Part shown: piece by piece, positions 781 through 60,744 of the stretch | Layout: each line of letters starts with the position of its first letter | Position numbering within the stretch: the first letter of the stretch is position 1 | Assembly (NCBI RefSeq): GCF_014518425.1 | Contig: NZ_JACVCU010000002.1 | Span: 620,001-684,000 of the forward strand | DNA length: 64,000 nt | Origin: Terrabacter sp. MAHUQ-38 | Lineage (GTDB): Bacteria > Actinomycetota > Actinomycetes > Actinomycetales > Dermatophilaceae | Direction of reading: 5' to 3' | Notes under the pieces: model-generated | What the model was told of the DNA's origin: nothing | Database searches by the model: none | What the model saw: only the letters and a program-made list of their open reading frames with translations | Translations under genes and position numbers: made by a program

Positions 781-1528
781 GGGTGGCTCCCAGGTATGCC
801 GTGATGACCCGATCGTCGGCGCGCACCTGCTCGTAGGGCCCCTCCGCGAGCACCTGCCCCGACTGGAGCACCGTGACCCGGTCGGCGAGGGAGCCGACGA
901 CGTGCATGTTGTGGTCGACGAGGACGACCGTGCGTCCGACGGCGAGCTGCTTGACGAGCGCGATGGTGCGGTCGACGTCCTCGATGCCCATGCCCGCGGT
1001 GGGCTCGTCGAGGAGCAGCAGCTTGGGGTCGAGTGCCATGGCGATGGCCAGCTCGAGCGCGCGCTTCTGGCCGTACGCGAGCGATGATGCGGGCGCTCCG
1101 GCGCGGTCCGCGAGCCCGACCTGCTCGAGCAGGTCCATCGCGCGGTTCCGGAACACCGCCAGGCGCGTGACCGAGCGCCACCACTGCTTCCCCATGCCGG
1201 TCGGGCTCGCGAGTGCGAGCTCGAGGTGCTCGGCCAGGCTCATGGCCTCGAAGAGGCTGGTGATCTGGAAGGAGCGGGCGATGCCGAGCGGGGCGATCTG
1301 CTCGGGCGCGCGGCCGGTGATGTCCTGACCGTCGAAGAGGACGGTGCCCGAGGTCGGTGACAGGAAGCCGGTGAGGAGGTTGAAGAGCGTGGTCTTGCCG
1401 GCTCCGTTGGGCCCGACGAGGGCATGGACCGTGCCGCGGGCCACGGACAGGTCGACGTCCCAGACCGCCCGGAAACCGCGGAACTCCTTGGTCAGGGCTC
1501 TGGTCTCGAGCAACGGGGTACCCGTCAA
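773..1528 (-). CDS. livG: Branched-chain amino acid ABC transporter ATP-binding protein LivG
   Basis: Second ATPase of the LivFG pair, about 251 residues. Walker A GPNGAGKTT, a degenerate signature LAYGQKR typical of LivG, and Walker B LLLLDEPTAGM are all present. An in-frame GTG at 1535-1537 would add three residues, but it is fused to the Shine-Dalgarno sequence (GAGGAGGT); a TTG at 1526-1528 sits 7 nt after that SD and is the better start. It is first in the visible operon, with livF overlapping its end by 8 nt. A dyad (ggttcc-ggc-ggaacc) about 75 bp upstream could be an operator. Function by family; the transported substrate is an inference. Confidence 0.9.
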   Translation of the reverse strand: MTGTPLLETRALTKEFRGFRAVWDVDLSVARGTVHALVGPNGAGKTTLFNLLTGFLSPTSGTVLFDGQDITGRAPEQIAPLGIARSFQITSLFEAMSLAEHLELALASPTGMGKQWWRSVTRLAVFRNRAMDLLEQVGLADRAGAPASSLAYGQKRALELAIAMALDPKLLLLDEPTAGMGIEDVDRTIALVKQLAVGRTVVLVDHNMHVVGSLADRVTVLQSGQVLAEGPYEQVRADDRVITAYLGATHD

Positions 1529-1601
1529 GACCTGCACCTCCTCGTGCGTCGCGCTGAGTCAGCGGTTCGCCGACCTGGCGGCCGGCGATGGTTGCCTTGC
1601 T

Positions 1602-1616
1602 GGTTCCGGCGGAACC
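1602..1616. promoter_or_regulatory. Operator-like dyad upstream of livG
   Basis: Perfect inverted repeat ggttcc-ggc-ggaacc, about 75 bp upstream of the livG start. Position and symmetry suit a repressor or activator site; the binding protein is unknown. Confidence 0.35.
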
Positions 1617-1743
1617 GGAAACTTCGGGCAAGCCTAGGAGGGCGGCACGGCGAAAGGACGGTGGGGACCCACACACCTGTCGTGGTTCTGTGGGGTGGGC
1701 ACACATGAGGGCGTAGAAGCACCCGGCCGCGGAGGGAACGAGC

Positions 1744-1831
1744 ACGGAACGGGGTCAGGACGGAGACGGAACGGGGTCAGGACGGGGACGGAACGGGGTC
1801 GGAACGGGGACGGAACGGGGTCAGGACAGAG
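1744..1831. repeat. Four tandem 22-bp repeats
   Basis: Four head-to-tail 22-bp units (1744-1765, 1766-1787, 1788-1809, 1810-1831), each beginning acggaacggggtc and differing by at most a few bases. The period is close to two helical turns. The array lies just downstream of the ligA stop and upstream of livG. There are no spacers, so it is not CRISPR; it looks like a minisatellite/VNTR or a cooperative protein-binding array. Confidence 0.9.
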
Positions 1832-1849
1832 TCTTTGGGATCGGTCGGC

Positions 1850-4072
<2,223 letters not shown>

Positions 4073-4164
4073 TCAATGACGCTCGTCACGTCGCGGCGGG
4101 TCTGTTCACCGGCCGGACCAGCGGTGACAATGGGCGCGAGCCCGCCCGCTGCAAAGGAGCAGAG

Positions 4165-5676
<1,512 letters not shown>

Positions 5677-5733
5677 CCCCCTGCTGAGCACGTCGCGGAC
5701 GAGCAGGCGGCCAGCACCGCGAACCGCCGGCGT

Positions 5734-5774
5734 ATGCCGTCCGCGCACGTCCCGGGGACCTGCGCAGACGGCAT
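5734..5774 (+). terminator. Hairpin after acyl-CoA ligase gene, containing octamer GTATGCCG
   Basis: Inverted repeat with 14-nt arms (5734-5747 and 5761-5774; one mismatch) around a 13-nt loop, 57 bp after the ligase stop. There is no clear T-run. The left arm is entered by a GTATGCCG word at 5732-5739. Confidence 0.5.
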
Positions 5775-7243: not shown

Positions 7244-8224
7244 TCAGTCTGCGCTGCGCTCGTCGAGCTCGCGGGCCGTGTCGACGGCGGTGCGGTGGAT
7301 CGTCCGGGCCAGCTCGGGGGATGCTCCCGCGAGTCCGCACGCCGGTGTGACGACGACGTCGGCGAGCGCGGCGAACGGCATCCCGATCCGGCGCCAGGCG
7401 TCGACGAGCCGGCCGGCGACGTCCTGCGGCCGCGTGAGGGAACCATCCGTCGGCACCGCTCCCGCATGCAGCCGTATGCCGTCCTCGACCGCCACGGCCA
7501 GGCCCTCCCACCCGCGCGGGCGCAGCACGGACGTGTCGACCGACAGGGCCGACGGTCCGGCCGCGCGCAGGAGCGGCAAGGGCGGGTCCGCGGCGCAGCA
7601 GTGAAGCACGGTCTCGCCGTCGTGGGCGGCGAGGACGGTCCTGAGCCCGGCCGCCGCCACCTGCGGGTCGAGGCTCGGCAGCCGGCCGAAGCCGGACGAG
7701 GTCGGCAGCCGCCCCGCCAGGACCGTCGGCAGCGACGGCTCGTCGACCTGCAGCACGATCTCGGCGCCGGGGACGAGCCGGCGCACCGAGGCGACGTGCA
7801 CGCGTATGCCTTCAGCGAGCGACTCGACGAGGTCACGGCGCGCGCCCGCGTCGACCACGACGCGCTCCCCGCGGGAGAGCCACACGTTCGCGCTGAGGGT
7901 CCAGGGGCCGACGACCTGCACCTTGACCCTTCCGGCGTACCCGTCGAAGGCCTCGGCGAGCTCGTCGAGGTCCTCCCGCATGAACGCACCGGTGCGGTTG
8001 GCGTCGAGGCCGGGTCGGTCGACGAGCCGCCAACCGATGGGCTGGAGGTCGACGGGCATCTCGACGAGCAGACCCGCCGTGCGCCCGATCATGTCGGCGC
8101 CCGGGCCTCGTGCCGGCAGCTCCGGCAGGTAGGGCAGGTGGCCGTCGAGCAGCTCGCGGACCTGGGCGAGCGCCTCGCGGATGGAGGTGCCGGGCCAGGA
8201 GCCGATGCCGGTCGCGAGAGTCAC
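7244..8224 (-). CDS. Cobalamin-independent methionine synthase (MetE)-like protein
   Basis: A 326-residue protein resembling only the C-terminal catalytic half of MetE. Possible zinc ligands are visible as LHCC (His208, Cys209/210) and TPACG (Cys296), and the barrel segment QVDEPSLP is conserved. True MetE is about 750 residues, so methyl donor and acceptor are uncertain; a similar stand-alone protein (Rv3015c) sits next to ligA in M. tuberculosis, which matches this neighbourhood. GTG start, leaderless: TAGGCT ends six bases upstream. Two GTATGCCG words inside force rare ATA codons. Confidence 0.8.
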   Translation of the reverse strand: MTLATGIGSWPGTSIREALAQVRELLDGHLPYLPELPARGPGADMIGRTAGLLVEMPVDLQPIGWRLVDRPGLDANRTGAFMREDLDELAEAFDGYAGRVKVQVVGPWTLSANVWLSRGERVVVDAGARRDLVESLAEGIRVHVASVRRLVPGAEIVLQVDEPSLPTVLAGRLPTSSGFGRLPSLDPQVAAAGLRTVLAAHDGETVLHCCAADPPLPLLRAAGPSALSVDTSVLRPRGWEGLAVAVEDGIRLHAGAVPTDGSLTRPQDVAGRLVDAWRRIGMPFAALADVVVTPACGLAGASPELARTIHRTAVDTARELDERSAD

Positions 8225-10005: not shown

Positions 10006-10087
10006 CCCCGCCCAGCGCGCGTCGAGGTGATCCTCGCGACGAGGCGCGACGGCATACCTCGACCGCCACGTGCCAGGCGCCGAGGGC

Positions 10088-18157: not shown

Positions 18158-18933
18158 CGTCCCTCGAACTGCGCCTTGCCCGGCCCCTGTTCCACGAACG
18201 AGGCCATGCCGATCTCACGGTCCCTCGTCGCGAAGAGCGAGGCGAAGAGCAGGCGCTCGATCTCGAGCCCCGTCTCGAGGTCGACCTCGAGCCCGCGGTC
18301 GATGGCCTCCTTGGCGGCGCGGACGGCATACGTCGGCCCGCCCACGAACGTCGCCGCCCACGTGCGCGCGGTGTCGTACACGTCGGCCGCCGGGACGACC
18401 TTGTCAGCGAGCCCGATGGCCTGCGCCTCCTGGGCGTCGACGAAGCGGCCGCTGAAGATGATCTCCTTGGCGCGCGAGGCGCCGACGAGCCGCGAGAGGC
18501 GCTGCGTGCCTCCGGCGCCCGGGATGATGCCGAGGAGGATCTCCGGCTGCCCGAGCTTCGCGTCGTCGGCCACGACCCGGAAGTCGCAGGCGAGCGCGAG
18601 CTCGCACCCGCCGCCGAGCGCGTAGCCGGTGATCGCGGCGATGACCGGCTTGGGGATGCGGGCAACCGACGTGATCGAGCTCATGAGCGGCACGGAGCGC
18701 TCGACCATGTCGGTGTAGGACATGGTCTGCATCTGCTTGATGTCCGCGCCGGCGGCGAACACCCGGTCACCGCCCCAGACGATGACCGCCTTGACGTCCG
18801 TGCGGGCGCCCGCCTCGGCGGCCGCCTCACGGATCTCCTCCTGGACCTGGATGTTGAGGGCGTTCATCTTCGGCCGGTCGAGGCGGATCGTGCCGATGCC
18901 GTCCTCGACCTCCAGCCGGACGAACTCGCCCAT
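18154..18933 (-). CDS. Enoyl-CoA hydratase (crotonase family)
   Basis: Hydrates trans-2-enoyl-CoA in beta-oxidation. 259 residues; oxyanion-hole segment GGDRVFAAGADIKQM, GYALGGGCELALACDF with Glu111, and GQPEILLGIIPGAGGTQ with Glu131 give both catalytic glutamates. ATG at 18933 shares one base with the stop of the upstream ybjN-like gene (TGATG), so it is coupled. Context with etfBA supports fatty-acid catabolism. Confidence 0.94.
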   Translation of the reverse strand: MGEFVRLEVEDGIGTIRLDRPKMNALNIQVQEEIREAAAEAGARTDVKAVIVWGGDRVFAAGADIKQMQTMSYTDMVERSVPLMSSITSVARIPKPVIAAITGYALGGGCELALACDFRVVADDAKLGQPEILLGIIPGAGGTQRLSRLVGASRAKEIIFSGRFVDAQEAQAIGLADKVVPAADVYDTARTWAATFVGGPTYAVRAAKEAIDRGLEVDLETGLEIERLLFASLFATRDREIGMASFVEQGPGKAQFEGR

Positions 18934-19548: not shown

Positions 19549-21693
19549 ATGCCCCCGCCGCCTCCCGCGACGCCTGACCTCCCTCCCCCGCTCGGCGTGC
19601 GCCTCACCGACGAGGGCGCGCAGTTCAGCGTCTACGCCGGCCACGCCCGGTCGGTCGAGGTGTGCCTCTTCGGCACTGGTCCCGACGACGTGACGACCGA
19701 GCGGCGGGTGCCGTTGCGGCACCGCGCGCACGGCACGTGGTTCGACACGGTGCCCGGAGTCGTCGCCGGGCAGCGGTACGCATTCCGCGTCGACGGGGAG
19801 TGGGACCCCGAGCGCTCGTTGCTGCACAACCACACCAAGCTCCTCCTCGACCCGTACGCCCGGGCGGTCGAGGGCGAGGTCCGCCTCGACCCCGCCCTCT
19901 ACGGGCACCGCGTCGGGTCCGACCTGCGCGGAGACCTCTGGGCGCGCGACGACCGCGACTCGGCCCCGTACGTGCCTCGATGCGTCATCGTCGAAGACGA
20001 ATTCGACTGGGGCGCAGACGAGTCCCCGCGACGCTCGCTCACCGAGTCACTCATCTACGAGGTCCACGTCAAGAACGCCACGAAGCTCCATCCCGGGGTC
20101 CCTGAGGAGCTCAGGGGCACGTATGCCGGGTTGGCCCACCCTGCATTCGTGCAGCACCTGCTCGAGCTCGGCGTCACGGCCGTCGAGCTGCTGCCCGTCC
20201 ACACGTTCACGCACGAGCCCGACCTCGTGCTGCGAGGCCTGACGAACCACTGGGGCTACAACACGCTCGGCTTCTTCGCGCCGCACGCGGCGTATGCCGC
20301 CACGTCCGAGCCGCAGGGCGTCCTCGACGAGTTCAAGGCGATGGTCAAGGCCCTGCACGCGGCGGGCATCGAGGTGCTCCTCGACGTCGTCTACAACCAC
20401 ACGGCCGAGAACTCCCGCGAGGGCATGACGCTCTCGTGGCGCGGGCTCGACCAGCGGGCGTACTACCGGGTCGACAGCCGGGGCCGCGACATCGACATGA
20501 CGGGCTGCGGCAACACCCTCGACCTGACCCACCCGATCGTGGCGCGCATGGTTCTCGACTCGCTGCGGTACTGGGTCCAGGAGTGCCACGTCGACGGGTT
20601 CCGCTTCGACCTCGCCGTGGCGCTCGGCCGCGGCAAGGACGACGGCTACGACCGGGACCACCCCTTCCTCGTCGCGCTGCGCACCGACCCGGTGCTCTCG
20701 CGCTCCAAGCTGATCGCCGAGCCGTGGGACCTCGGAATCCACGGGTGGCGCACCGGCCAGTTCCCGCCGCCCTTCTCGGAGTGGAACGACCGCTACCGCG
20801 ACGCCACCCGCACCTTCTGGCTGCGCGACCTCGCGGCCTCCACGACGGGCGGCATCGGCCACGGCGTGCGAGACCTCGCGACGCGCCTCGCGGGTTCGCA
20901 GGACCTCTTCGACAGCCACGACCGGGGCACCATCGCGTCGATCAACTTCGTGACCGCCCACGACGGGTTCACGCTCGCCGACCTCACCGCGTACGACTCG
21001 AAGCACAACGGGATGAACGGGCACGGCGGCACCGACGGATCCGACGACAACCGCTCGTGGAACCACGGCGTCGAGGGCCGCACCGACGACGTCGATGTCC
21101 TCGTCGCGCGGCGACGCTCGATCCGCAACCTGCTCGGCACCCTGCTGCTCTCGACCGGCGTCCCGATGATCAACGCCGGTGACGAGCTCGGCCGCAGCCA
21201 GCGCGGCAACAACAACCCGTACTCGCAGGACAACGAGATCAGCTGGATGTCGTGGGACCTCGAGCCGTGGCAGGAGGACCTGCTCGCCACGACGCGCCAC
21301 CTCGTCCGGCTGCGACGTGACCACCCGGTGCTGCGCCAGCGGGCGTTCTTCTCGGGCAGGCAGATCCACGCGGACGGATCCATGGACCTCGCGTGGTTCG
21401 GCGCCGACGGCGAGCCGATGGGCCACCGGTGGGACGGTCCGACGGTCGACGTGCTCCAGGCCCTCTACAACGGGGCCTGGCTCTCCCACCAGTCCGTCCT
21501 CGTGACCCTCAACGGCTCGGCTCGTCCCGCGGACGTCACCCTGCCCACCGCCCCCGGCACGACGGCGTACGAGCTCGTCTGGGACAGCACGGACGACCGC
21601 CCGGCTCCTCCGGGCGCACCCGTCGACGCCGGATCGGTGGTCGCGACGGGTGCCGCGTCGATGCGCGTCTGGTGCGCCGTCGAGGGCGCCTGA
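19549..21693 (+). CDS. glgX: Glycogen debranching enzyme GlgX
   Basis: GH13_11 isoamylase-type enzyme hydrolysing alpha-1,6 branches of phosphorylase-trimmed glycogen. 714 residues: N-terminal CBM48-like beta domain (15-130), catalytic barrel with DVVYNHT, nucleophile Asp354 (GFRFDLA), acid/base Glu391 (IAEPWDLG) and Asp472 (TAHDGFT), and a C-terminal beta domain. The tract MSWDLEPWQ is typical of the family. Divergent from ybjN-like and convergent with glgP, whose product makes its substrate. Confidence 0.95.
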   Translation: MPPPPPATPDLPPPLGVRLTDEGAQFSVYAGHARSVEVCLFGTGPDDVTTERRVPLRHRAHGTWFDTVPGVVAGQRYAFRVDGEWDPERSLLHNHTKLLLDPYARAVEGEVRLDPALYGHRVGSDLRGDLWARDDRDSAPYVPRCVIVEDEFDWGADESPRRSLTESLIYEVHVKNATKLHPGVPEELRGTYAGLAHPAFVQHLLELGVTAVELLPVHTFTHEPDLVLRGLTNHWGYNTLGFFAPHAAYAATSEPQGVLDEFKAMVKALHAAGIEVLLDVVYNHTAENSREGMTLSWRGLDQRAYYRVDSRGRDIDMTGCGNTLDLTHPIVARMVLDSLRYWVQECHVDGFRFDLAVALGRGKDDGYDRDHPFLVALRTDPVLSRSKLIAEPWDLGIHGWRTGQFPPPFSEWNDRYRDATRTFWLRDLAASTTGGIGHGVRDLATRLAGSQDLFDSHDRGTIASINFVTAHDGFTLADLTAYDSKHNGMNGHGGTDGSDDNRSWNHGVEGRTDDVDVLVARRRSIRNLLGTLLLSTGVPMINAGDELGRSQRGNNNPYSQDNEISWMSWDLEPWQEDLLATTRHLVRLRRDHPVLRQRAFFSGRQIHADGSMDLAWFGADGEPMGHRWDGPTVDVLQALYNGAWLSHQSVLVTLNGSARPADVTLPTAPGTTAYELVWDSTDDRPAPPGAPVDAGSVVATGAASMRVWCAVEGA

Positions 21694-37261: not shown

Positions 37262-37783
37262 TCAGTCGGCGGTGTGCCGCGCGGCTCGCCGCACCATCCG
37301 CATCTCGGACACGCCCGTCGGCTCGTGCGTGCTCCGCCCGCCCTCGTCGGTGAACCCACGGCGCAGATAGAAGGACCTCGCCCTCGCGTTGTCCTCGACG
37401 ACCCACAGCGTCGCGTCGCGGTCGCCTACGAGCTCGTCGACGAGCCGGTCGGCCACGCCCGTGCCACGCGCCTCCGGCATGAGGTTGACGGCATACAGCT
37501 CCCACTCGGTGGGGGCGTCCGCGTCACGGCTGGGCCCGGCGCTCGCGAAGCCCGCGACCCGACCCTCGGGGTCGATGACGACGATGGTGCGCTCGGGGCC
37601 GCTCTCGTGGTGCGCGGCGCGCTCGCGCCAGTTCGCGGCACAGTGCTCGTCGCTGAGCCCCGCGAGGTACTCGGCAGGCATGACTCCTGCGTAGGCGTCG
37701 CGCCACACCGCCATGTGCACGCGGCCGAGCTCGTCGCAGTCCTCGAGCGTGAGCGGCCTCAGCCGCCAGTCCGACTCACTCAT
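37262..37783 (-). CDS. GNAT-family N-acetyltransferase
   Basis: 173 residues with GNAT motif A LMPEARGTGVADRLVDEL and the end segment RARSFYLRRGFTDEG. Substrate unknown. ATG 37783 overlaps the upstream gene's stop by 8 nt; the frame extends further upstream but that part is Ser/Arg-rich and unlikely. A GGCATAC word (37490) forces a TAT codon in LYAVNLMPE. Confidence 0.87.
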   Translation of the reverse strand: MSESDWRLRPLTLEDCDELGRVHMAVWRDAYAGVMPAEYLAGLSDEHCAANWRERAAHHESGPERTIVVIDPEGRVAGFASAGPSRDADAPTEWELYAVNLMPEARGTGVADRLVDELVGDRDATLWVVEDNARARSFYLRRGFTDEGGRSTHEPTGVSEMRMVRRAARHTAD

Positions 37784-38096: not shown

Positions 38097-38102
38097 ACCG
38101 TA
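38097..38102 (-). promoter_or_regulatory. -10 element overlapping a CGGCATAC word
   Basis: TACGGT on the minus strand, 6 nt before ATG 38090; the minus strand reads CGGCATACGGT, so the octamer and the promoter share bases. Confidence 0.6.
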
Positions 38103-38151
38103 TGCCGCCGCCGACCGCCGTCGACGCACGGCCCGGCGCCGTTGGTGCCGG

Positions 38152-39337: not shown

Positions 39338-40303
39338 TCAGGTGCCGAGCTGCTCCAGGAGACGATCAGCGGCGGCATACGGGTCGAGGGTGCCGTCGGT
39401 CACCTCACGGGCCAGCGCACTGAGCCCCTCGCGCCCACCCAGCGTGCCGAACCGCGAGCGCAGGGTAGCGAGGGCGATCGCCTCGATCTCGTCGGCAGCA
39501 CGTCGCTCGCGGCGCCGGGCGAGCTCGCCGTTGTCGGAGGCGTTGGCCCGGTGCTTGTCCAGTGCCTCCATGACCTCGTCGACGCCGATCTTCTGCGCGG
39601 CAACGGTTTTCACGACCGGTGGGCGCCAGAGACCGGGCTCGGTGCGGTCGCCGAGCGAGATCATGTGCCTCAGGTCGCGCACCGTGGCGTCGGCCCCGTC
39701 ACGGTCGGCCTTGTTGACGACGAAGACGTCGCCGATCTCGAGGATGCCGGCCTTCGCCGCCTGGATGCCGTCGCCCATCCCCGGCGCGAGCAGGACGACC
39801 GAGGTGTCGGCGAGCCCGGCGATCTCCACCTCGGACTGACCGACGCCGACCGTCTCGACGAGGACGACGTCGCAGCCGGCGGCGTCGAGCACGCGGATCG
39901 CCTGGGGCGTGGTCCAGGACAGGCCTCCGAGGTGCCCGCGCGAGGCCATCGAGCGGATGTACACCTCGGGGTCGAGGGCGTGGTCCTGCATCCGGATGCG
40001 GTCACCGAGCAGCGCCCCACCGGAGAAGGGCGACGACGGGTCCACCGCGAGCACGCCCACGCGCAGGCCGCGCTGTCGGAACGCGCCGACGAGGGCGGTC
40101 GTCGTCGTCGACTTGCCCACGCCGGGTGAGCCGGTCAGGCCGATGACCCAGGCCGAGCCCGCATGGGGAGCCAGCGCGGCCATGACCTCACGCAGCGTCT
40201 CGTGGCCGTCCTCGACGAGCGAGATCAGGCGTGCGACGGCACGCGGCGCACCCGCCCTGGCCGACTCGACCAGGGCGGGGACGTCGACGGATCGGCGCGC
40301 CAC
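39338..40303 (-). CDS. meaB: Methylmalonyl-CoA mutase-associated GTPase MeaB
   Basis: G3E GTPase that protects and loads adenosylcobalamin onto B12-dependent acyl-CoA mutases. 321 residues: Walker A GSPGVGKS (58-65), DPSSP, ETVGVGQSE and NKAD (197-200). GTG start, 21 bp downstream of the thiolase, probably the second gene of a thiolase-meaB operon. Its client is likely the ethylmalonyl-CoA mutase encoded at 50.9-53 kb. Confidence 0.95.
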   Translation of the reverse strand: MARRSVDVPALVESARAGAPRAVARLISLVEDGHETLREVMAALAPHAGSAWVIGLTGSPGVGKSTTTTALVGAFRQRGLRVGVLAVDPSSPFSGGALLGDRIRMQDHALDPEVYIRSMASRGHLGGLSWTTPQAIRVLDAAGCDVVLVETVGVGQSEVEIAGLADTSVVLLAPGMGDGIQAAKAGILEIGDVFVVNKADRDGADATVRDLRHMISLGDRTEPGLWRPPVVKTVAAQKIGVDEVMEALDKHRANASDNGELARRRERRAADEIEAIALATLRSRFGTLGGREGLSALAREVTDGTLDPYAAADRLLEQLGT

Positions 40304-41616: not shown

Positions 41617-41647
41617 CACACGGCATACGGCGTCCGTATGCCGTGTG
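41617..41647. promoter_or_regulatory. 31-bp palindrome in the thiolase/epimerase divergent promoter
   Basis: Perfect 14-nt arms (41617-41630 and 41634-41647) around cgt, made of two inverted GTATGCCGTGTG words. The right arm covers the expected -35 region of the epimerase promoter (17 bp before its -10 at 41655), so binding here should block it. Confidence 0.6.
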
Positions 41648-44454: not shown

Positions 44455-44499
44455 CCCACGTATGCCGTGTGGCGGGATCCGCCGCACGGCAATCGTGGG
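44455..44499 (+). terminator. Hairpin terminator of ccr containing GTATGCCGTGTGG
   Basis: Arms 44455-44475 and 44479-44499 pair at 18 of 21 positions plus one G-U. It begins right after the ccr stop and shares the 14-mer cgtatgccgtgtgg with the palindrome at 41635-41648. Confidence 0.65.
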
Positions 44500-44589: not shown

Positions 44590-45930
44590 GTGAGCATCTG
44601 GGGTCGGTGGACCCGCTACCGCCGCGTCCAGCGCGCCCGCATGGACGAGTTCCGGGCGCGCGACCTCGGCTTCGACGACCAGTCCTCGCGGGCGGCGTAC
44701 GGCACGTCGTCGGAGCCGCCCGACGAACAGCTCGAGCACGACCTCATCGCGAGCACGCTGCCCGGGTTCGACCCCGGAGGAGGCCGCGGGAGCACGCCGG
44801 CCGACGACGACCCCGCGGCCTCCGGAACGGGGGCTGAGGGCCCCAAGCGCGCCAAGGGCGCCCGCCGCGACTTCGGTCCGAGCGGCACGCCGTTCAACCG
44901 CCAGTCACCGTTCTACGTCGGCTTCGTCGGGGCGGTCGGCGTGCTCACGGCATACGCCGTCGTCCAGGCCGTCGGGCGGCTCGGCACCGTCATCACGCTG
45001 CTCGTCATCTCCTTCTTCCTCACGCTGGCCCTCAATCCCCTCGTCGAGGCGCTGACGACGAGGAACCTGCGTCGGGGGTGGGCCGTCACGGGCGTCTTCC
45101 TCGGGGTGCTCGCCGTCTTCACGCTCGTGGGCTGGGTCGTCATCCCACCCGTCGCGCAGCAGGGCACCGAGCTGGCGACGAACGCCCCGCGCATGTTCGA
45201 CGACCTGCTCGCCAACCCCTGGGTGCAGGACGTCGACCACCGCTACCAGCTCGTCCAGCGCATCCAGGAGGAGGTGGGCAGGCGCGTCGCCGACGGCAAC
45301 CTCTGGGCCGGCGTCTTTGGCGGGGTCCTCGACGCCGGCAAGGTCATCGCCTCCGGCGTCTTCAGCGTGCTGACCGTCCTCGTGCTGACGCTCTACTTCC
45401 TCGCATCACTGCCGGCCGTCAAGCAGGCCGCCTACGCCCTCGTCCCGGCGAGCCGCCGCCCCCGCACCGTCTCGCTCTCCGAGGAGGTCATGCGTCGGGT
45501 CGGCTCGTACGCGATCGGCCAGGTCGCGGTGGCCGCGATCAACGCCTTCTTCGCGTGGATCATGATGAGCCTCATCGGCCTGAGGTTCGCAGCCGTGCTG
45601 GCTGTCGCGGTCGGGTTCCTGGGACTCGTCCCCATGGTCGGCGCGACTCTCGGTGCGTCGGTCGTGGCTGTCGTGGCCTTCTTCGACGAGCCCCAGAAGG
45701 CCCTCATCGTCATCATCTACTTCATCGTCTACCAGCAGCTCGAGAACTATGCCGTCATGCCGCGGATCATGCAGCGCACCGTTGCCGTGCCGGGCGCGGT
45801 GACCGTCGTGGCCGCGCTCGCGGGCGGCACCCTGCTCGGCATCCTCGGTGCCCTCCTCGCGATCCCCTTCGCGGCCGGAGCGCTGCTGCTCTACGAGGAG
45901 GTGCTGGTCCCCCGCCAGCGCCGCCACTAG
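44590..45930 (+). CDS. AI-2E family transporter
   Basis: 446-residue membrane protein of the AI-2E (TqsA/YdiK, UPF0118) family, proposed exporters or permeases of small molecules. A soluble N-terminal 105 residues, acidic and Gly/Pro-rich, precedes paired hydrophobic helices (SPFYVGFVGAVGVLTAYAVV and VITLLVISFFLTLALNPLV), a large central loop, and the C-terminal helices with GLVPMVGATLGAS and YFIVYQQLENYAVMP, the family signature. Transport substrate unknown. Its TAG stop overlaps the convergent gene's TAG in a shared CTAG. Confidence 0.9.
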   Translation: MSIWGRWTRYRRVQRARMDEFRARDLGFDDQSSRAAYGTSSEPPDEQLEHDLIASTLPGFDPGGGRGSTPADDDPAASGTGAEGPKRAKGARRDFGPSGTPFNRQSPFYVGFVGAVGVLTAYAVVQAVGRLGTVITLLVISFFLTLALNPLVEALTTRNLRRGWAVTGVFLGVLAVFTLVGWVVIPPVAQQGTELATNAPRMFDDLLANPWVQDVDHRYQLVQRIQEEVGRRVADGNLWAGVFGGVLDAGKVIASGVFSVLTVLVLTLYFLASLPAVKQAAYALVPASRRPRTVSLSEEVMRRVGSYAIGQVAVAAINAFFAWIMMSLIGLRFAAVLAVAVGFLGLVPMVGATLGASVVAVVAFFDEPQKALIVIIYFIVYQQLENYAVMPRIMQRTVAVPGAVTVVAALAGGTLLGILGALLAIPFAAGALLLYEEVLVPRQRRH

Positions 45931-47572: not shown

Positions 47573-47881
47573 TCAGCGGTAGGCGTTGCCCGGAGGTCTC
47601 GCATCGCGCCGCTGCCAGCACCCCGTGTGCCAGTGGCGCCGGTCGCCGAGACCGCCCACGCCCTCGGCCGGCCACACGACGACGTGTGGCACGCCGGGAG
47701 GCACGTCCTGCTGACAGCCCGGGCAGAGGTAGGGCCGGGTGGCGGACGCGCCGCTCACGGAGCGCACGGTCCACCGCGTGCCGGCATACGTCTCCTCGCG
47801 CGTCGTGCCGCCCTGGATGCGCGTCACGTCGAGCGGGACGTGCCCCCGCGCGTGTTTGCTGGGACGTCGACGCGAGGGCAT
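47573..47881 (-). CDS. Small Cys/His zinc-ribbon-like protein
   Basis: 102 residues; basic N-terminus, then CPGC (about 64-67) and a distal HWHTGCW that together could bind zinc, with PHVVVWPAEGVGG between. Such proteins are widely conserved in actinobacteria, sometimes labelled ATP/GTP-binding without evidence. Function unknown. Leaderless ATG: TACGCT six bases upstream. An upstream in-frame start would overlap the dehydrogenase gene and is rejected. Confidence 0.72.
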   Translation of the reverse strand: MPSRRRPSKHARGHVPLDVTRIQGGTTREETYAGTRWTVRSVSGASATRPYLCPGCQQDVPPGVPHVVVWPAEGVGGLGDRRHWHTGCWQRRDARPPGNAYR

Positions 47882-47897: not shown

Positions 47898-49676
47898 TCA
47901 GGCGTACGTGCGGAACCCACGCCCCGTCTTGCGCCCGAGGTAGCCGGCGGTGACGAGGTGCTCGAGGAGGGGCGCCGGCGCGTAGCCACGCTCGCGGAAC
48001 TCGAGGTAGAGCTCGCGCTCGATCGCGAGCGACACGTCGAGGCCGACGACGTCGAGCAGCTCGAAGGGGCCCATCGGCAGACCGCAGCCGGTCTTCATCG
48101 CGGTGTCGATGTCATCGGCCGTCGAGTAGTTGGCCTCGAGCATCTTCACGGCGTCGTTGAGGTACGGGAAGAGCAGCGCGTTGACGATGAATCCCGCACG
48201 GTCACCACACGTCACGGGGTGCTTGCCGATGCTCGCGCAGAGCTGCTGCACCGTCGCGACGACGTCGTCGCCGGTCGAGACCGTGTGGACGACCTCGACG
48301 AGCTTCATGACCTGGGCCGGGTTGAAGAAGTGCATGCCGATGACGTCCTGCGGACGCTTCGTCGCGGCCGCGCACTCGACGACGGGCAGCGAGCTCGTCG
48401 TCGTCGCGAGGATCGCGCCGGGGCGGCAGATCTCGTCGAGGTTCTCGAAGAGAGCGCGTTTGACGGTGAGGTCCTCGACGACGGCCTCGACGACGAGGTC
48501 GACCTGGGCGAGGTCGTCGAGACGCGTCGTGCCACGCACACGGGCGAGGGCGGCGTCGCGCTCGTCCTCTGTGGCCTTGCCGCGCTGGACGGCCTTCTCG
48601 AGGCTCTTGGCGATGGCGGCCATGACGGCGTCGACCTTCGCCTGCGAGCGAGCCACCACCGTGACGTCGAGACCGGCCTTGGCGAAGACCTCGACCATGC
48701 CGGTCGCCATCGTGCCGGACCCGACGACACCGACGGTGCGGATCGGACGGGCGGACGCCGCGGCCTCGGCGGTGGCTTTCGGCGTCAGCGCGTCGTCGAC
48801 GACCTCAGAGCTGCCCGGGGCGGCATACGTGTAGAAGCCGCGGCCGCTCTTGCGGCCCTTGAGCCCGGCGCTGACCATCTGCTTGATGATGGGGCTCGGC
48901 GCGTGGAGGCGGTCACGCCCCTGCTTGTACATCGTGTCGAGGATCTCGTAGGCGGTGTCGAGGCCGATGAGATCCATGAGCGCGAGGGGGCCCATCGGGT
49001 AGCCACAGCCGAGGCGCATCGCGGCGTCGATGTCCTCGCGCGTCGCGTAGCGGCTCTCGTACATCGACACCGCGTGGTTGAGGTAGCCGAAGAGCAGCGC
49101 GTTGGCGATGAAACCGGCCTTGTCGCCCACGATGACCGGCTTCTTGCCGATGCGCTCGGCGAGAGCCTTGACGTCCTCGAAGATCTCGTCGCTCGTGATG
49201 ACGGTCTTGATGACCTCGACGAACTGGAGCACCGGCGCGGGGTTGAAGAAGTGCATGCCGACGACACGCTTGGGGTTGAGGGTCGCCACGGCGATCTCGG
49301 TGACCGGGAGGCTCGAGGTGTTCGTCGCGAGGATCGCGTCGTCGGCGACGATCGTGTCGAGCCGCGCGAAGATCTCCTTCTTGAGGTCGAGGTGCTCGGG
49401 CACCGCCTCGACGACGAGCTGGCACTCCTTGAGGTCGGCCATGTCGCTCGTGAACTGGACGCGCGAGTGCAGCGTCGCCTGCTCCTCCTCCGTCAGCTTG
49501 CCGCGCGAGACGGCGCGGTCGGTCGAGTGCTGCAGGACGCCCTTGCCCTTCTCCACCGCCTCGTCGGTGACCTCGACCGCGACGACGTCGATGCCGTTGC
49601 GTGCGAAGACCTCGACGATGCCGGCACCCATGGTGCCGAGTCCGATGACGCCAACCTTGGTGAACTCACGAGCCAT
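47898..49676 (-). CDS. Tandem 3-hydroxyacyl-CoA (3-hydroxybutyryl-CoA) dehydrogenase
   Basis: 592 residues made of two complete HBD modules. Each has its own NAD motif (VGVIGLGTMGAGIVE near residue 8, VGVVGSGTMATGMVE near 305), NTSSLPV/TTSSLPV, GMHFFNPAPV/GMHFFNPAQV with catalytic His, and C-terminal domain ending GRKSGRGFYTY/GRKTGRGFRTY. It would reduce acetoacetyl-CoA to 3-hydroxybutyryl-CoA upstream of Ccr or oxidise hydroxyacyl-CoA. ATG 49676 with GGGAG upstream. Such fused twins are known in actinobacteria. Divergent from nucS. Confidence 0.95.
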   Translation of the reverse strand: MAREFTKVGVIGLGTMGAGIVEVFARNGIDVVAVEVTDEAVEKGKGVLQHSTDRAVSRGKLTEEEQATLHSRVQFTSDMADLKECQLVVEAVPEHLDLKKEIFARLDTIVADDAILATNTSSLPVTEIAVATLNPKRVVGMHFFNPAPVLQFVEVIKTVITSDEIFEDVKALAERIGKKPVIVGDKAGFIANALLFGYLNHAVSMYESRYATREDIDAAMRLGCGYPMGPLALMDLIGLDTAYEILDTMYKQGRDRLHAPSPIIKQMVSAGLKGRKSGRGFYTYAAPGSSEVVDDALTPKATAEAAASARPIRTVGVVGSGTMATGMVEVFAKAGLDVTVVARSQAKVDAVMAAIAKSLEKAVQRGKATEDERDAALARVRGTTRLDDLAQVDLVVEAVVEDLTVKRALFENLDEICRPGAILATTTSSLPVVECAAATKRPQDVIGMHFFNPAQVMKLVEVVHTVSTGDDVVATVQQLCASIGKHPVTCGDRAGFIVNALLFPYLNDAVKMLEANYSTADDIDTAMKTGCGLPMGPFELLDVVGLDVSLAIERELYLEFRERGYAPAPLLEHLVTAGYLGRKTGRGFRTYA

Positions 49677-50528: not shown

Positions 50529-50876
50529 TCAGTCCAGTCCGTCGATCGGCTGCTCGGTGCTGCCGTCGGCGTCGACGAGGAGCAGGAGGGGTTGCGGCGC
50601 CGAGCCGCCGCGCACGACGACGACCGTCTCCCCACGGTGACGGTCGACGAGCTCGTCGAAGCCTGCCGACCCGTCCCGGAGGTCACCGTGGCTGAGGTGT
50701 GAGGGCACGCCGAGGTCGTCGGCCAGCGACTCGACCGGACCGCTGTCAGGGACGTCGGCGGCGGCATACACCGCCTGGATCTTCTCGAGGTGGATCGCAG
50801 AGGCGAGCCACGCGACATCGGCCAGGCCCGGCGGGTTGACGACGATGATCCGCGCGGCGCACTGGAGGTCGCTCAT
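50529..50876 (-). CDS. Putative degenerate histidine-phosphatase-like protein
   Basis: 115 residues. The start ARIIVVNPPG occupies the place of the histidine phosphatase RHG motif, and VVVVRGGSAP that of the distal HGG motif; YAAADVPDSGPVESLADDLGVP resembles the intervening SP-RA--TA region. With RHG and the second His lost, catalysis is unlikely; the protein may be a regulatory remnant. The match is by eye and moderate. ATG 50876 is leaderless (TAGCGT six bases upstream), so the gene looks expressed. It lies between nucS (convergent) and the mutase. Confidence 0.5.
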   Translation of the reverse strand: MSDLQCAARIIVVNPPGLADVAWLASAIHLEKIQAVYAAADVPDSGPVESLADDLGVPSHLSHGDLRDGSAGFDELVDRHRGETVVVVRGGSAPQPLLLLVDADGSTEQPIDGLD

Positions 50877-50894: not shown

Positions 50895-52976
50895 TCAGGC
50901 GGGCGCGGTCTCGAGGGGCGCGAGGCCGCGGGCCGAGCGGATGACGCCCACCATCTCGCCCATGATGTCGTTGAGACCGAAGTCCTTGGGGGTGAAGACC
51001 ATCGCGACACCGGCCGCACGCAGGGCCGCGGCGTCGGACTCGGGGATGATGCCGCCGACGATGACGGGGACGTCGCCCGCGCCGGCCTCCTCGAGCCCGC
51101 GCAGCACCTCGGGCACGAGCTCCATGTGCGAGCCGCTCAGGATGGAGAGTCCGACGAGGTGCACGTCCTCGGCGACGGCCGCTGCCACGATCTGCTCCGG
51201 CGTCAGACGGATGCCCTGGTAGACGACCTCGAATCCCGCGTCGCGGGCCCGCACCGCCACCTGCTCGGCACCGTTGCTGTGGCCGTCGAGACCAGGCTTG
51301 CCGACGAGGACGCGCAGCTTCTCGCCGAGCTCCTCTCCGGTGCGCGCCACGAGCCGGCGCACGAGCGACAGGGCGTCCCCCGGCTCGCTCGACCCGACGC
51401 CGACGGAGCCCGAAACGCCTGTCGGAGCGCGGTACTCGCCGAACTCCTCGCGCAGCGCGGCCGCCCACTCCCCCGTGGTCACCTCGGCCCGGGCGCACTC
51501 GAGGGAGGCGGCCATGAGGTTTGCCCCGGATGCCGCGTCAGCTCGCAGGCGCTCCAGCGAGGCGACCGCTCGGGCTCGCCGCTTCGGGTCCGCGTCACGC
51601 GCCTCCCGCCACGCGCGTACGGCGTCGGCGGCCGTCCGCTCGACGTCCGCGTCGACCGTCTGGATTGCGGTGTCGAGGTCTGACGTCAGCGGGTTGGGCT
51701 CCGTCGTCTCGAAGCGGTTGAGGCCCACGACGACCGACTCACCCGCCTCGATGCGGCGGCGGCGCTCGGCGTGGGAGGCGACGAGGGCCGACTTCATGTA
51801 CCCGGACTCGACGGCCGCGACGGCGCCACCCATCTGCTCGATGCGTGCCATCTCGGCCCTCGCCCCCTCGACGAGCTCGGCGACCTTGCCCTCGACGACG
51901 ACCGAGCCGGTGAAGAGGTCGTCGTACTCGAGCAGGTCGGACTCGTAGGCGAGGACCTGCTGCATGCGCAGGCTCCACTGCTGGTCCCACGGGCGCGGCA
52001 GTCCCAGCGCCTCGTTCCACGCCGGGAGCTGGATCGCCCGGGCCCGGGCGTCCTTCGAGAGCGTCACGGCGAGCATCTCGAGGACGATGCGCTGGACGTT
52101 GTTCTCCGGCTGGGCCTCGGTCAGGCCGAGACTGTTGACCTGGACTCCGTAGCGGAAGCGCCGAGCCTTCGCGTCGGTGACGCCGTAGCGCTCACGGGTC
52201 AGCTCGTCCCAGAGCTGGACGAAGGCGCGCATCTTGCACATCTCCTCGACGAAGCGCACGCCGGCGTTGACGAAGAAGGAGATGCGGGCGACGACACTCG
52301 CGAACTCGTCCGCCGGCAGCTGGCCCGAGTCGCGCACCGCGTCGAGCACCGCGACGGCCGTCGACATGGCGTACGCGATCTCCTGGACGGGAGTCGCCCC
52401 GGCCTCCTGCAGGTGGTAGCTGCAGATGTTGATCGGGTTCCACCTCGGGATGTCACGCACGGTGTAGGCCACCATGTCGGTGATGAGCCGCAGCGACGGA
52501 CCGGGCGGGAAGACGTAGGTCCCGCGCGAGAGGTACTCCTTGATGATGTCGTTCTGCGTCGTGCCGGCGAGCGCGTGCACCCACGCGGTCGGGTCCTCGC
52601 CCGCGGCCTCGGCCTGGCGCTCGGCCGCGACCTGGTAGAGCGAGAGCAGCCACATGGCCGTCGCGTTGATCGTCATCGACGTGTTCATCTCGCGCAGCGG
52701 GATCGCGTCGAAGAGGGCGGCCATGTCGCCGATGTGGCTGATCGGCACGCCCACCTTGCCGACCTCGCCCCGGGACAGCACGTGGTCGGGGTCGTAGCCG
52801 GTCTGCGTCGGCAGGTCGAAGGCGACGGAGAGGCCGGTCTGGCCCTTGGCGAGGTTGCGGCGGTAGAGCTCGTTGCTCGCGGCGGCGCTCGAGTGGCCGG
52901 CATACGTCCGCATGACCCATGGGCGGTCGGGCGTCACCCGGGCGGCCGGGGCAGGCGTGCTCTCCGTCGAAGACAT
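50895..52976 (-). CDS. ecm: Ethylmalonyl-CoA mutase (MeaA/Ecm)
   Basis: B12-dependent mutase converting (2R)-ethylmalonyl-CoA to methylsuccinyl-CoA. 693 residues: TIM-barrel mutase domain with SVAFDLPTQTGYDPDH and GEVGKVGVPISHIGD (Ecm-type rather than the MCM text), MNTSMTINATAMWLL, and a fused C-terminal cobalamin domain with DGHSNG (His566 lower ligand). Methylmalonyl-CoA mutase is the alternative. ATG 52976 is leaderless (TACCGT six bases upstream). MeaB and a B12 adenosyltransferase are encoded nearby. Confidence 0.93.
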   Translation of the reverse strand: MSSTESTPAPAARVTPDRPWVMRTYAGHSSAAASNELYRRNLAKGQTGLSVAFDLPTQTGYDPDHVLSRGEVGKVGVPISHIGDMAALFDAIPLREMNTSMTINATAMWLLSLYQVAAERQAEAAGEDPTAWVHALAGTTQNDIIKEYLSRGTYVFPPGPSLRLITDMVAYTVRDIPRWNPINICSYHLQEAGATPVQEIAYAMSTAVAVLDAVRDSGQLPADEFASVVARISFFVNAGVRFVEEMCKMRAFVQLWDELTRERYGVTDAKARRFRYGVQVNSLGLTEAQPENNVQRIVLEMLAVTLSKDARARAIQLPAWNEALGLPRPWDQQWSLRMQQVLAYESDLLEYDDLFTGSVVVEGKVAELVEGARAEMARIEQMGGAVAAVESGYMKSALVASHAERRRRIEAGESVVVGLNRFETTEPNPLTSDLDTAIQTVDADVERTAADAVRAWREARDADPKRRARAVASLERLRADAASGANLMAASLECARAEVTTGEWAAALREEFGEYRAPTGVSGSVGVGSSEPGDALSLVRRLVARTGEELGEKLRVLVGKPGLDGHSNGAEQVAVRARDAGFEVVYQGIRLTPEQIVAAAVAEDVHLVGLSILSGSHMELVPEVLRGLEEAGAGDVPVIVGGIIPESDAAALRAAGVAMVFTPKDFGLNDIMGEMVGVIRSARGLAPLETAPA

Positions 52977-54851: not shown

Positions 54852-54858
54852 CCACCGC

Positions 54859-56461: not shown

Positions 56462-56470
56462 GCGGCGGCC

Positions 56471-56749: not shown

Positions 56750-56780
56750 GTTTCCTCCGGATCGTGGGGGTGTGCTGTGC

Positions 56781-56786: not shown

Positions 56787-56867
56787 GTGCCTCTGCGAGG
56801 ATGCTCCGTACGCGAGGTGGCGCTCGCCTCTCGCGCCGATTCCCCATCCTCCACAGGAGTCCGATCC

Positions 56868-57305
56868 ATGAGCACTGCAGTGTCCGACGCCCTCCTCGAG
56901 CCCGCCCGCCGCCCGGTGGCGGTCGAGACCCTGACCGATGTCATCGACGCCGAGGTGGCCGACAAGTCCGGCTTCGGGGGCGCCGCAGTCAAGGCCGGGT
57001 ACGCCGCCGCGAAGAAGCTCGGCGGCAGCTTCGTGTCGAGCGCCACCGACCGCCTGCTCCCCCAGTTCGCCAGCGCCCTCGACCCGTTCTGGGCCACGAA
57101 GGGCGACCAGCCGTTCGGCGCGCACCTCGCAGCCCAGCCGGACGCCGCCGCGGACGCTCTGCTCGCCGTCACCGACGCGAAGGCCGCGAACACCTCGCAC
57201 GGCTCCGCCGCCAAGGTCTACGGCACGCTGCGCGGGAAGGCCAAGGAGCACGTCGTGGCCGCCCTCCCGCGCCTCGGCGCGGCAGTGGAGCGCCTCGTCC
57301 CCTGA
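56868..57305 (+). CDS. Conserved hypothetical protein
   Basis: 145 residues, Ala-rich and helical, beginning MSTAVSDALLEPARRPVAV; regions KAGYAAAKKLGGSFVSS and RLLPQFASALDPFW stand out. No signal peptide, membrane helix or enzyme motif. It may belong to an actinobacterial family of unknown function (possibly DUF6918, not certain). ATG with GGAG 8 nt upstream. It is one of the genes separating atpC from atpD. Confidence 0.7.
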   Translation: MSTAVSDALLEPARRPVAVETLTDVIDAEVADKSGFGGAAVKAGYAAAKKLGGSFVSSATDRLLPQFASALDPFWATKGDQPFGAHLAAQPDAAADALLAVTDAKAANTSHGSAAKVYGTLRGKAKEHVVAALPRLGAAVERLVP

Positions 57306-57342
57306 CCCGGCTCCCGCGTGGCGGGACCCCCTAGGACGTATG

Positions 57343-57381
57343 CCGCTGGGCCGGCTCCCACGTGCGGAGCCGGCCCAGCGG
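57343..57381. terminator. Bidirectional terminator
   Basis: Perfect 16-bp stem (57343-57358 / 57366-57381), 7-nt loop, between the convergent hypothetical and ndh genes; a GTATGCCG word (57338-57345) runs into the left arm. Confidence 0.8.
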
Positions 57382-57410
57382 TGGTTCGCAGACCCCGCGC
57401 CGCGAGCGGG

Positions 57411-58838: not shown

Positions 58839-58899
58839 GGTTCTCCTTGTCGTTGCGTGAAGGGTCTCGTCGACGCTGACGTCTGTCCATCTGTTCCAA

Positions 58900-58946
58900 C
58901 ACCGGTGCTCCTACCCACATGCCCCTCGGGCGGTGCAGCACCGGTG
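58900..58946 (-). terminator. Hairpin downstream of GT-C-like gene
   Basis: Perfect 10-nt arms caccggtgct / agcaccggtg (58900-58909, 58937-58946) around a 27-nt loop in the gap between the membrane-protein gene and ndh; possible terminator. Confidence 0.4.
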
Positions 58947-58971
58947 GCCTGCATCACATGCTCGGCACTGC

Positions 58972-60744
58972 TCATCCGGTGTGTCTCAGGACCACGACCT
59001 GCGAGGTCTGGGATACGACGCGGTAGTGAGCGACGACCCAGTCGCGCAGCGGGTCGGGGGCTCGGATGTAGCGGTTGCGGCCGAGACCGGGCCAGTAGTC
59101 GCGGGCGGCGACGACGCACTCCGGCACGCGGCCGGTGCGCTCGATCCAGTCCAGCACGTATCGGCTCGTCGAGCCGAAGTAGTCCATCCACACGATGGGG
59201 GTGTCGAAACGGACGTCGGCGTAGAGGAACGCGGCTGGGTGGATGTAGTCGAGGACTCCGTCTCCCGCAGCCGCGCAGGCCCGCAACGCCTGCTGGCCGG
59301 CCAGGACCTCGTCGCTGCGCTCCTGCGTCGTGAGAAGCCCCGCGAACGCGCCGTCGGGTGCGGCGACGACGAGCGTACCGGGCGGCCCGTCGCGGTAGCT
59401 GTTGAGCACGTGGACCGTGCCGAGCCAGAGCAGCAGCATCACCGCGACCATGACCTTGCCGGCGCGCGAGCGCACCCAGACGAGCGCGCCCAGCGACGCC
59501 GCGAGCAGTCCCGGCGCGAGGGTCGCCCCGGTCGCGCCCCAGACCGGTGCCGACGACGTGAACGCCGCGACGAGGGGCGTCCCGACGAGCGTCGGGGCGA
59601 AGCCCAGGACCGCGAGGCGTCCCACCGGGCGGTGGTCCCGCACCGAGGCCACGACCAGGACCGGCAACAGCACGACCGCCACGACGCTGCCGGCGAGCGG
59701 GCTGAGCCACGACAGGACGGTGTAGGTGCTCGCTTCCGCACCGCCCTGCACCGCCTGCACACCGACGGCGAGGACGGCGACGACGAGCAGCGGTGCGCGC
59801 AGGCGGCGCATGGCCGGAAACGCCGCGAGCACGCCCAACCACATCGCGGTCAGCACCCACGGACCGGTGAGTGCCTCGCCGAGCTGGGTCGCCCAGCGGC
59901 CGAGCCGGTCGGCTCGGCTGGGACGCGTGACCTGGTAGGCGTCGGTGAAGGCCAGCGTCTCCGACACGTTGGCCGGACCCCAGACGCCCACCCAGAGCAC
60001 CACGACGACGAGCACCACGGCCACCACCCCGACCACCACGGCCGTGACCCCCGGCCGGCGTGCGAGCCTGCTCCGTATGCCGGGAGGTGCCTGCCGAAGA
60101 CCTTCCGCGGCGTCGCGGCGCCACAGCATCGTCCCGAGCAGGATGAGCAGCACGGCCGCCGCAGGTGCGGTGACCGGGTGGCTCACCGCCCCGAGCGTGG
60201 CCGCCGCTCCCGCCAGGACGGCATACGGCCGCCGACAACGCACACACCGGGTCACCGCCCCGACGCCGGCGCTCGCGGCGAGCAGGTACATGAGCGCAGG
60301 CGTCGTGTTGTACGACAACACCTGCTGGTTGTACGCGGCGGGCACGAGCGCGACCGCCAGCGCGCAGGCGCTCGCGCCCCAGCCGAACGTCCGGCGCAGC
60401 GCGAGCCAGGCCGCCGTACCGACGGCCGCCGACACGACCACGAACCACACGCGCGACGCGAGCACGATCCCGTGCAGACCCACGACGTGCAGCCACACCC
60501 ACGTGAACGGCACCCCCGGCCACGCCCCGAGGACCTGCAGGTTCATCTCGTCGCGGAACGGCACGTCACCCTGAGCGAGCCGCATCGCCAGCTCCACGGC
60601 GTGCGAGCTGTCGCTGAGGTCGACCCCGTAGCGTGCCCGCGAGACCACCGCGGCCACGACGGCGGCGGCGAACACCGCCACCCACCGACGACGAGCGGGG
60701 AGGGCCCAGAGGGCACCTCCCCGCCATCGGGTCGCACGGACCAT
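58972..60744 (-). CDS. Polytopic membrane protein, GT-C glycosyltransferase-like
   Basis: 590 residues with about ten to twelve hydrophobic helices and a soluble C-terminal part (about 485-590) probably outside the membrane. The first loop DLSDSSHAVELAMRLAQGDV, followed by PFRDEMN, resembles the acidic loop of GT-C (GT39/ArnT-like) enzymes, but the acidic pair is not classical, so the call is tentative. It begins only 15 bp after atpD, with no clear SD, exactly where atpC is expected. Function unknown; likely polyprenyl-linked sugar transfer. Confidence 0.6.
   Translation of the reverse strand: MVRATRWRGGALWALPARRRWVAVFAAAVVAAVVSRARYGVDLSDSSHAVELAMRLAQGDVPFRDEMNLQVLGAWPGVPFTWVWLHVVGLHGIVLASRVWFVVVSAAVGTAAWLALRRTFGWGASACALAVALVPAAYNQQVLSYNTTPALMYLLAASAGVGAVTRCVRCRRPYAVLAGAAATLGAVSHPVTAPAAAVLLILLGTMLWRRDAAEGLRQAPPGIRSRLARRPGVTAVVVGVVAVVLVVVVLWVGVWGPANVSETLAFTDAYQVTRPSRADRLGRWATQLGEALTGPWVLTAMWLGVLAAFPAMRRLRAPLLVVAVLAVGVQAVQGGAEASTYTVLSWLSPLAGSVVAVVLLPVLVVASVRDHRPVGRLAVLGFAPTLVGTPLVAAFTSSAPVWGATGATLAPGLLAASLGALVWVRSRAGKVMVAVMLLLWLGTVHVLNSYRDGPPGTLVVAAPDGAFAGLLTTQERSDEVLAGQQALRACAAAGDGVLDYIHPAAFLYADVRFDTPIVWMDYFGSTSRYVLDWIERTGRVPECVVAARDYWPGLGRNRYIRAPDPLRDWVVAHYRVVSQTSQVVVLRHTG

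Follow-up and report, generated by a model that had tools for sequence, protein, structure and literature searches.

An abundant non-palindromic octamer of Terrabacter and its family as a candidate DNA uptake sequence

We examined a 64-kb stretch of the genome of Terrabacter sp. MAHUQ-38, family Dermatophilaceae (contig NZ_JACVCU010000002.1, positions 620,001 to 684,000; here referred to as the window), in which an earlier note had pointed out a strongly over-represented octamer, GTATGCCG, with CGGCATAC as its reverse complement. That this octamer is a recognised DNA word, as the note had proposed, is strongly supported by its conservation, its override of codon choice, its lineage-restricted abundance and the occurrence of related words in relatives. 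Words of this kind serve Neisseria and Haemophilus as marks for the uptake of their own DNA, and we lean, with slightly more than even confidence, towards reading GTATGCCG as a DNA uptake (self-recognition) sequence, with binding, uptake preference, competence and a receptor as the parts that we infer. The reading is suggested by abundance, balanced orientation, excess outside genes, hairpins, conservation and dialects around a GTA-G-CG frame, which together match the DNA uptake sequences (DUS) and uptake signal sequences (USS) of known systems. Among the functions that the note had offered, a DNA-processing signal comes nearest to this; an uptake sequence was not one of them.

Results

Abundance of the octamer

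The heptamer GTATGCC/GGCATAC occurs 25 times in the window (12 and 13 copies, respectively), exactly at each start previously listed, and in 24 of them the next base is G, which gives the octamer; the sole exception, at position 7804, reads GTATGCCT. Just 2 of the 27 GCATAC/GTATGC hexamers (positions 3270 and 11134) lack the flanking bases. The GC content, assumed before as about 71%, was measured as 0.710, and base composition predicts 2.2 octamers, in agreement with the rough figure of 2 given earlier, while order-2 and order-3 Markov models predict 0.9 and 1.4 versus the 24 seen. The 9-mer ranking of the window is topped by CGGCATACG and ACGGCATAC. An order-5/6 Markov test, which the earlier note had set as its refutation, predicts 18–23 copies in the window and is uninformative, because the subwords at that order carry the signal of the word itself.

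In the whole genome (G000; 5.16 Mb in 18 contigs; other genomes are likewise denoted by G numbers) we counted 2024 copies, 1006 forward and 1018 reverse, so that the balance seen in the window extends genome-wide; the reversed word, used as a control, occurs 309 times (167 + 142). The density is about 390 per Mb, or approximately one copy per 2.5 kb, and every one of 21 stretches sampled from two contigs of G000 carried the word. Its flanks are weak around the 8-bp core, a preceding C being present in 57–71%.

As a null model we shuffled synonymous codons, with proteins and codon usage held, in genes predicted by a home-made caller. In 404 kb of sampled G000 coding DNA, GTATGCCG was the top octamer, 15-fold in excess (145 seen versus 9.5 expected), and it also ranked first in G005 (80 versus 3.8) and G015 (97 versus 4.7); no octamer was as prominent in the three background genomes sampled. 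Three loci of G031 (L055, a tandem repeat, L058 and L059) were excluded from the codon-shuffle, related-word and spacing counts, and three short loci of G015 (L024, L026 and L028) from the spacing, GC-bin and GC-skew tests.

Codon choice and conservation

Coding copies in G000 lie mostly in Tyr-Ala frames (TAT GCC 77 and GCA TAC 36, of 144 genic copies). TAT and ATA are both rare codons in G000, and 77 of the 189 TAT and 17 of the 40 ATA codons in the sampled coding DNA fall inside the word; for TAT, the corresponding fractions are 52 of 99 in G005 and 54 of 121 in G015.

The window was aligned with five congeners (about 86% identical, 56–61 kb aligned). TAT codons were retained in 39 of 48 comparisons inside the word versus 12 of 49 outside it (p = 2e-8), a p-value that is optimistic, as are the others for conservation, because the comparisons share sites across the five congeners and are not independent. 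Intergenic words were identical in 21 of 29 comparisons, versus 0.291 for all intergenic octamers, and coding words in 46 of 77, versus 0.378. Out of 42 word columns in the window-anchored alignment, 8 were invariant, 16 carried the word in a majority of genomes and 18 in no more than half; therefore the word is both retained and turned over. Terrabacter is strict about the sequence, as GTATG with A, G or T before a final CG is found at or below expectation.

The sites in the window are as follows; conservation means an identical octamer in the alignments with the five congeners.

794..801, + strand, GTATGCCG, identical in 3 of 5 congeners
5732..5739, + strand, GTATGCCG, intergenic, not kept (two congeners align with gaps, three unaligned)
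7474..7481, + strand, GTATGCCG, identical in 5 of 5
7804..7810, + strand, GTATGCC followed by T, the only heptamer without the octamer
10050..10057, - strand, CGGCATAC, intergenic, unaligned in all 5
18324..18331, - strand, CGGCATAC, identical in 4 of 5
20121..20128, + strand, GTATGCCG, identical in 5 of 5
20292..20299, + strand, GTATGCCG, 0 of 5, present in G000 only
26079..26086, - strand, CGGCATAC, 0 of 5, one-base variants in all
29326..29333, + strand, GTATGCCG, identical in 5 of 5
29969..29976, - strand, CGGCATAC, 1 of 5
37489..37496, - strand, CGGCATAC, identical in 5 of 5
38100..38107, + strand, GTATGCCG, intergenic, identical in 5 of 5
39373..39380, - strand, CGGCATAC, 4 of 5
41621..41628, - strand, CGGCATAC, forming the left arm of an inverted pair flanked by a thiolase gene (-) and a glyoxalase-superfamily gene (+), 4 of 5
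41636..41643, + strand, GTATGCCG, right arm of the same pair, with a 14-bp uninterrupted stem, 3 of 5
44460..44467, + strand, GTATGCCG, intergenic, 0 of 5, mostly unaligned
44948..44955, - strand, CGGCATAC, 0 of 5
47782..47789, - strand, CGGCATAC, intergenic, identical in 5 of 5
48821..48828, - strand, CGGCATAC, 3 of 5, with GTACGCCG in the other two
50762..50769, - strand, CGGCATAC, identical in 5 of 5
52898..52905, - strand, CGGCATAC, 3 of 5, with GTACGCCG in the other two
57338..57345, + strand, GTATGCCG, intergenic, 4 of 5
60075..60082, + strand, GTATGCCG, 0 of 3 aligned congeners
60219..60226, - strand, CGGCATAC, 3 of 4 aligned congeners

Distribution across genomes

In a set of 58 genomes, counting that of the window, a high density of GTATGCCG was found only within the window's family. 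Of 296 genomes drawn across the phylum, the three from this family were alone in reaching it (392, 604 and 357 per Mb). Next in that draw was G330, from another family of the phylum, with 161 copies in 1.8 Mb versus 30 of the reversed control.

A draw of 149 genomes from the family was divided into rich (at least 150 per Mb), background (below 40 per Mb) and the rest between. Rich genomes numbered 81 (median 491, maximum 1356 per Mb) and background genomes 53 (median 10), with 15 between. The 53 genera of this draw included 25 all-rich and 18 all-background ones, and two, g26 and g51, mixed rich and background genomes. Separately, a 22-kb locus of Intrasporangium oryzae (L134) held 10 copies, 2 of them in called coding sequence, and one of Intrasporangium flavum (L136) held none. 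In the loci L045–L049 of G014, a genome without the word, CCGNCTCC was enriched in raw k-mer counts (e.g. 58 versus 20.1 and 50 versus 18.8).

Related words in relatives

Genomes of relatives carry degenerate versions of the word. In G011 this is GTATGNCG, whose four forms occupy the codon-shuffle ranks 1–4 (C 199, A 116, G 115 and T 88, versus 16–23 expected each), and in G031 it is GTACGNCG, with C 128 versus 30.9, G 101 versus 25.5, T 83 versus 19.4 and A 55 versus 23.3 (ranks 1, 2, 3 and 26, respectively). Within the genus g26, G033 and G414 are rich in GTATGCCG; their congener G388 is at background for it and shows GTACGNCG instead. In 60 kb of G388, sampled as a candidate for such a switch, we found 27 copies of GTACGGCG versus 7.8 expected (rank 2), 27 of GTACGACG versus 10.7 (rank 6), 17 of GTACGTCG versus 6.8 (rank 49) and 10 of GTACGCCG versus 7.1 (rank 1698), the top octamer being another word and none of the GTACGNCG forms. 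All related words are enriched more weakly than GTATGCCG. None of eight word forms was clearly in excess in the three sampled background genomes G009, G014 and G017.

GTACGCCG ranks first in 22 kb of Allobranchiibius (15 versus 3.4 expected). It was also the top coding octamer in 22 kb of Nocardioides alcanivorans (L139; 11 versus 2.3), which lies outside the family, and here it is possibly a form of the word. The idea that GTACGCCG is a clean dialect in both G031 and G032 was rejected, since G031 fits GTACGNCG and G032 fits CGTACGYC better. Raw counts of GTACGCCG do not by themselves reveal a dialect, because some other families also have high ones. Hairpins of GTACGCCG were likewise dropped as a feature, with 14 in G031, 4 in G032 and at most 3 elsewhere, mostly without an extended stem by eye. 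In G031, locus L055 of contig C1 holds, from about position 5010, a 24-bp tandem repeat of some 25 copies that carries AGTTCGACG and ACGGTCACG.

Taken further, these words might form an uptake-sequence language proper to Actinomycetota, GTAYGNCG, read by a Tad-pilus- or ComEA-linked receptor, with the dialect switched at positions 4 and 6 between or within genera and the GTACGNCG form maybe reaching beyond the family; we regard this wider proposal as tentative and somewhat short of an even chance.

Inverted pairs and hairpins

Close inverted pairs are either +- (GTATGCCG followed by CGGCATAC) or -+ (the opposite order). Eight sampled genomes gave 18 close +- pairs, with starts 11–46 bp apart and uninterrupted stems of 8–17 bp (median 12); because several are orthologous by sequence, they represent about 13 separate loci. 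Co-directional genes flank 16 of the pairs and convergent genes the other 2, and no pair was found within a gene or between divergent genes, although 30% of the intergenic length is divergent. That all 18 hairpins sit at gene 3′ ends was rejected, since each of the 16 co-directional positions follows the 3′ end of one gene and precedes the 5′ end of another. The nine -+ pairs were found between divergent genes in four cases (one locus in four genomes, which is the window pair at 41621–41643), inside genes in two, between co-directional genes in two and at a contig edge in one. Over the whole G000 genome there are 30 +- pairs to 14 -+ ones, and +- exceeds -+ in all 9 Terrabacter genomes; neither order was found in any of 22 genomes from other families.

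On contig C1 of G023, most of the 33 +- hairpins have a CTGAGC or CTGGGC stem adjoining the word, and 32 of the 34 listed among its 39 -+ pairs have a total length of 23, 26, 29 or 32, a series with increments of three such as codon phase or a fixed motif might impose.

Arrangement along the chromosome

In a 464-kb sample of G000, 87% coding according to our caller, 51 of 195 sites were intergenic or crossed a gene boundary, so that the word is about twice as dense outside genes. Most copies stand alone, a distance of no more than 60 bp separating neighbours in 9 of 174 cases. At L003:14144-14165 of G000, three tandem CGGCATAC with one-base overlaps lie between two called genes. Low-GC bins were poorer in the word in G000 (1.25 versus 2.21 per 5 kb) and G015 (1.75 versus 5.84); in G005 the difference was not significant.

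The strand trends that the earlier note proposed looking for were followed with GC skew as a proxy for replication, in stretches with |skew| > 0.015. Four genomes showed no orientation bias relative to it (G000 35:34, G005 62:78, G011 63:86 and G015 52:55; p from 0.07, for G011, to 1.00).

Spacing was assessed as the variance/mean of 5-kb counts after merging clusters below 60 bp. It was more regular than chance would give in G005 (two sets, 0.34 and 0.36), G003 (0.29), G006 (0.27), G007 (0.36) and G011 (0.58), where the second G005 set and those of G002, G003, G006 and G007 are stretches orthologous to the window. Control words, two in G000 and one of these in G005, gave 0.82–1.03 and were not even; one of the control words was GGCGTACG.

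Discussion

The word as an uptake sequence

If GTATGCCG is an uptake sequence, the competence machinery would include a surface DNA receptor that binds it in either orientation, probably as part of a Tad/Flp pilus–ComEA–ComEC pathway. Fragments bearing the word would be imported and recombined more often than others, and this bias would spread and preserve the word across the chromosome. In another actinobacterium, Micrococcus luteus, transformation requires tad pilus genes (PMC4322843), and the phrase "uptake sequence" does not occur in the available portion of that study.

The likeness to the DUS of Neisseriaceae lies in a short non-palindromic word with thousands of copies in both orientations, favoured +- hairpins and dialects (PMC3630211, PMC1852404). 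DUS in that family form a group of dialects around a constant core (PMC3630211), and the uptake sequences of Neisseria and Pasteurellaceae form terminator hairpins with a similar bias of configuration (PMC1852404). Unlike DUS, the present word has an unrelated sequence, a high-GC Gram-positive host and far fewer hairpin pairs; no ComP-like receptor was identified, and the candidate receptor ComEA, compared by eye, did not discriminate. With the USS of Pasteurellaceae it shares abundance, lack of orientation bias, excess outside genes and some hairpin pairs (PMC1939737), but it differs from them in its 8-bp core with weak flanks and in having no AT-rich flanking segments. A 2025 review gives Neisseria as an example of the exception to non-specific uptake (PMC12236230).

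Several observations weigh against the uptake reading or its extension to dialects. The +- order is not favoured in six genomes (+-:-+ of 13:24 in G012, 74:81 in G015, 5:7 in G020, 33:39 in G023, 2:12 in G026 and 4:4 in G013). Hairpin pairs are few, the 30 pairs of G000 taking up 60 of its 2024 sites, a share below the approximately 10% of known uptake sequences that lie in inverted repeats (PMC1939737). Moreover, hairpins alone are no proof of uptake, because whatever favours the word would leave it on the two arms of a stem alike, and hairpins and related words are also expected from other word-favouring processes, as the highly iterated palindrome HIP1 of cyanobacteria has alternate HIPs. 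One-base variants of GTATGCCG showed no excess in G005 and G015, the GTACGNCG forms are enriched merely 1.4- to 4.3-fold in G031 and G388, GTACGCCG is frequent in some other families (2247 copies in the 7.0 Mb of G259), and G031 has few GTACGCCG hairpins. Even spacing was not seen in G000 (0.89), G015 (0.94) and G031 (0.78), and the value for G002 (0.58) was not significant. A single 20-kb stretch, L194 (G011:C2:50001-70000), held 11 forward and no reverse copies of GTATGCCG, with balance elsewhere.

The genes expected for competence do not single out the carriers of the word. Of 58 genomes, 57 have ComEC and 56 have TadE, genomes without the word among them, and both were rejected as discriminating genes; the machinery is thus present and leaves the distribution of the word unexplained. 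The receptor candidate ComEA, compared by eye in 11 proteins from 25 loci (5 from rich, 3 from background and 2 from dialect genomes and 1 from an outgroup, with the G000 protein not among them), looked alike in rich and background genomes. Among the matches listed from the open-licence literature, none reported natural transformation in this family.

Alternative explanations

The main rival is a HIP1-like iterated word, made and kept by a methyltransferase or another base modification with a linked mismatch-repair bias and with no role in uptake. HIP1 is likewise a very frequent octamer, with alternates in some lineages, and it tracks methyltransferases (PMC4390886). Also in its favour, GTACGCCG is depleted in the GTATGCCG-rich genomes G005 (15 versus 27.7) and G015 (11 versus 23.4), though not in G000 (70 versus 65.9). 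Deamination of C to T in GTACGCCG was rejected as the sole source of GTATGCCG because the copy numbers do not add up (GTATGCCG + GTACGCCG: 4724 + 304 in G015, 29 + 488 in G009 and 48 + 524 in G014). Unlike HIP1, which is a palindrome tied to methyltransferases, GTATGCCG is not palindromic, its reverse complement being CGGCATAC, and a repair bias would not be expected to produce even spacing. We consider this explanation unlikely, though it is the one that stands closest to the uptake reading.

A Chi-like recombination hot-spot signal, read by a RecBCD/AddAB/AdnAB-type enzyme, would agree with an octamer scattered over the chromosome roughly every 2.5 kb and evenly spaced in some genomes. Chi is usually polar, and the octamer shows no polarity relative to GC skew; 53 of the 149 family genomes also have it only at background density, and no octamer was comparably prominent in the three background genomes sampled. 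Such a role appears very unlikely to us. Just as improbable is a signal for handling the chromosome, whether an FtsK/SpoIIIE-type polar sequence, TraB-like recognition repeats or a nucleoid-protein site: the high copy number and the presence in all sampled stretches of G000 would fit, but the absence of polarity, the predominance of single copies and the coexistence of rich and background genomes inside g26 and g51 speak against it. At some 390 copies per Mb, a site for an ordinary regulator, an option that the earlier note had offered, is implausible. That the word is simply a product of codon usage or base composition is hardly credible, as the Tyr-Ala frames of most coding copies, which would suit this view, are outweighed by the 15-fold excess over synonymous shuffles, the use of the rare codons TAT and ATA to build the word and its doubled density outside genes; its conservation in the congener alignments speaks against this view as well.

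Significance

To our knowledge, self-specific uptake sequences are established only in Neisseriaceae and Pasteurellaceae, and we know of no earlier uptake-marking system in Actinomycetota. Judging by title and the start of the abstract, no open-licence report of this word or of any uptake sequence in the phylum was found among the matches listed, and the papers containing the literal octamer string appeared unrelated, again among the matches listed. If the uptake reading of GTATGCCG is true, this would be the first such DNA-marking system in the phylum and the third independent one, in Gram-positive bacteria, and it would put to the test two origins proposed for uptake words, a bias imposed by the receptor and selection for exchange among kin. 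Natural transformation, with its use as a practical genetic tool, would also be indicated for Dermatophilaceae, where genomes of the same genus that differ in the word make the search for the receptor direct.

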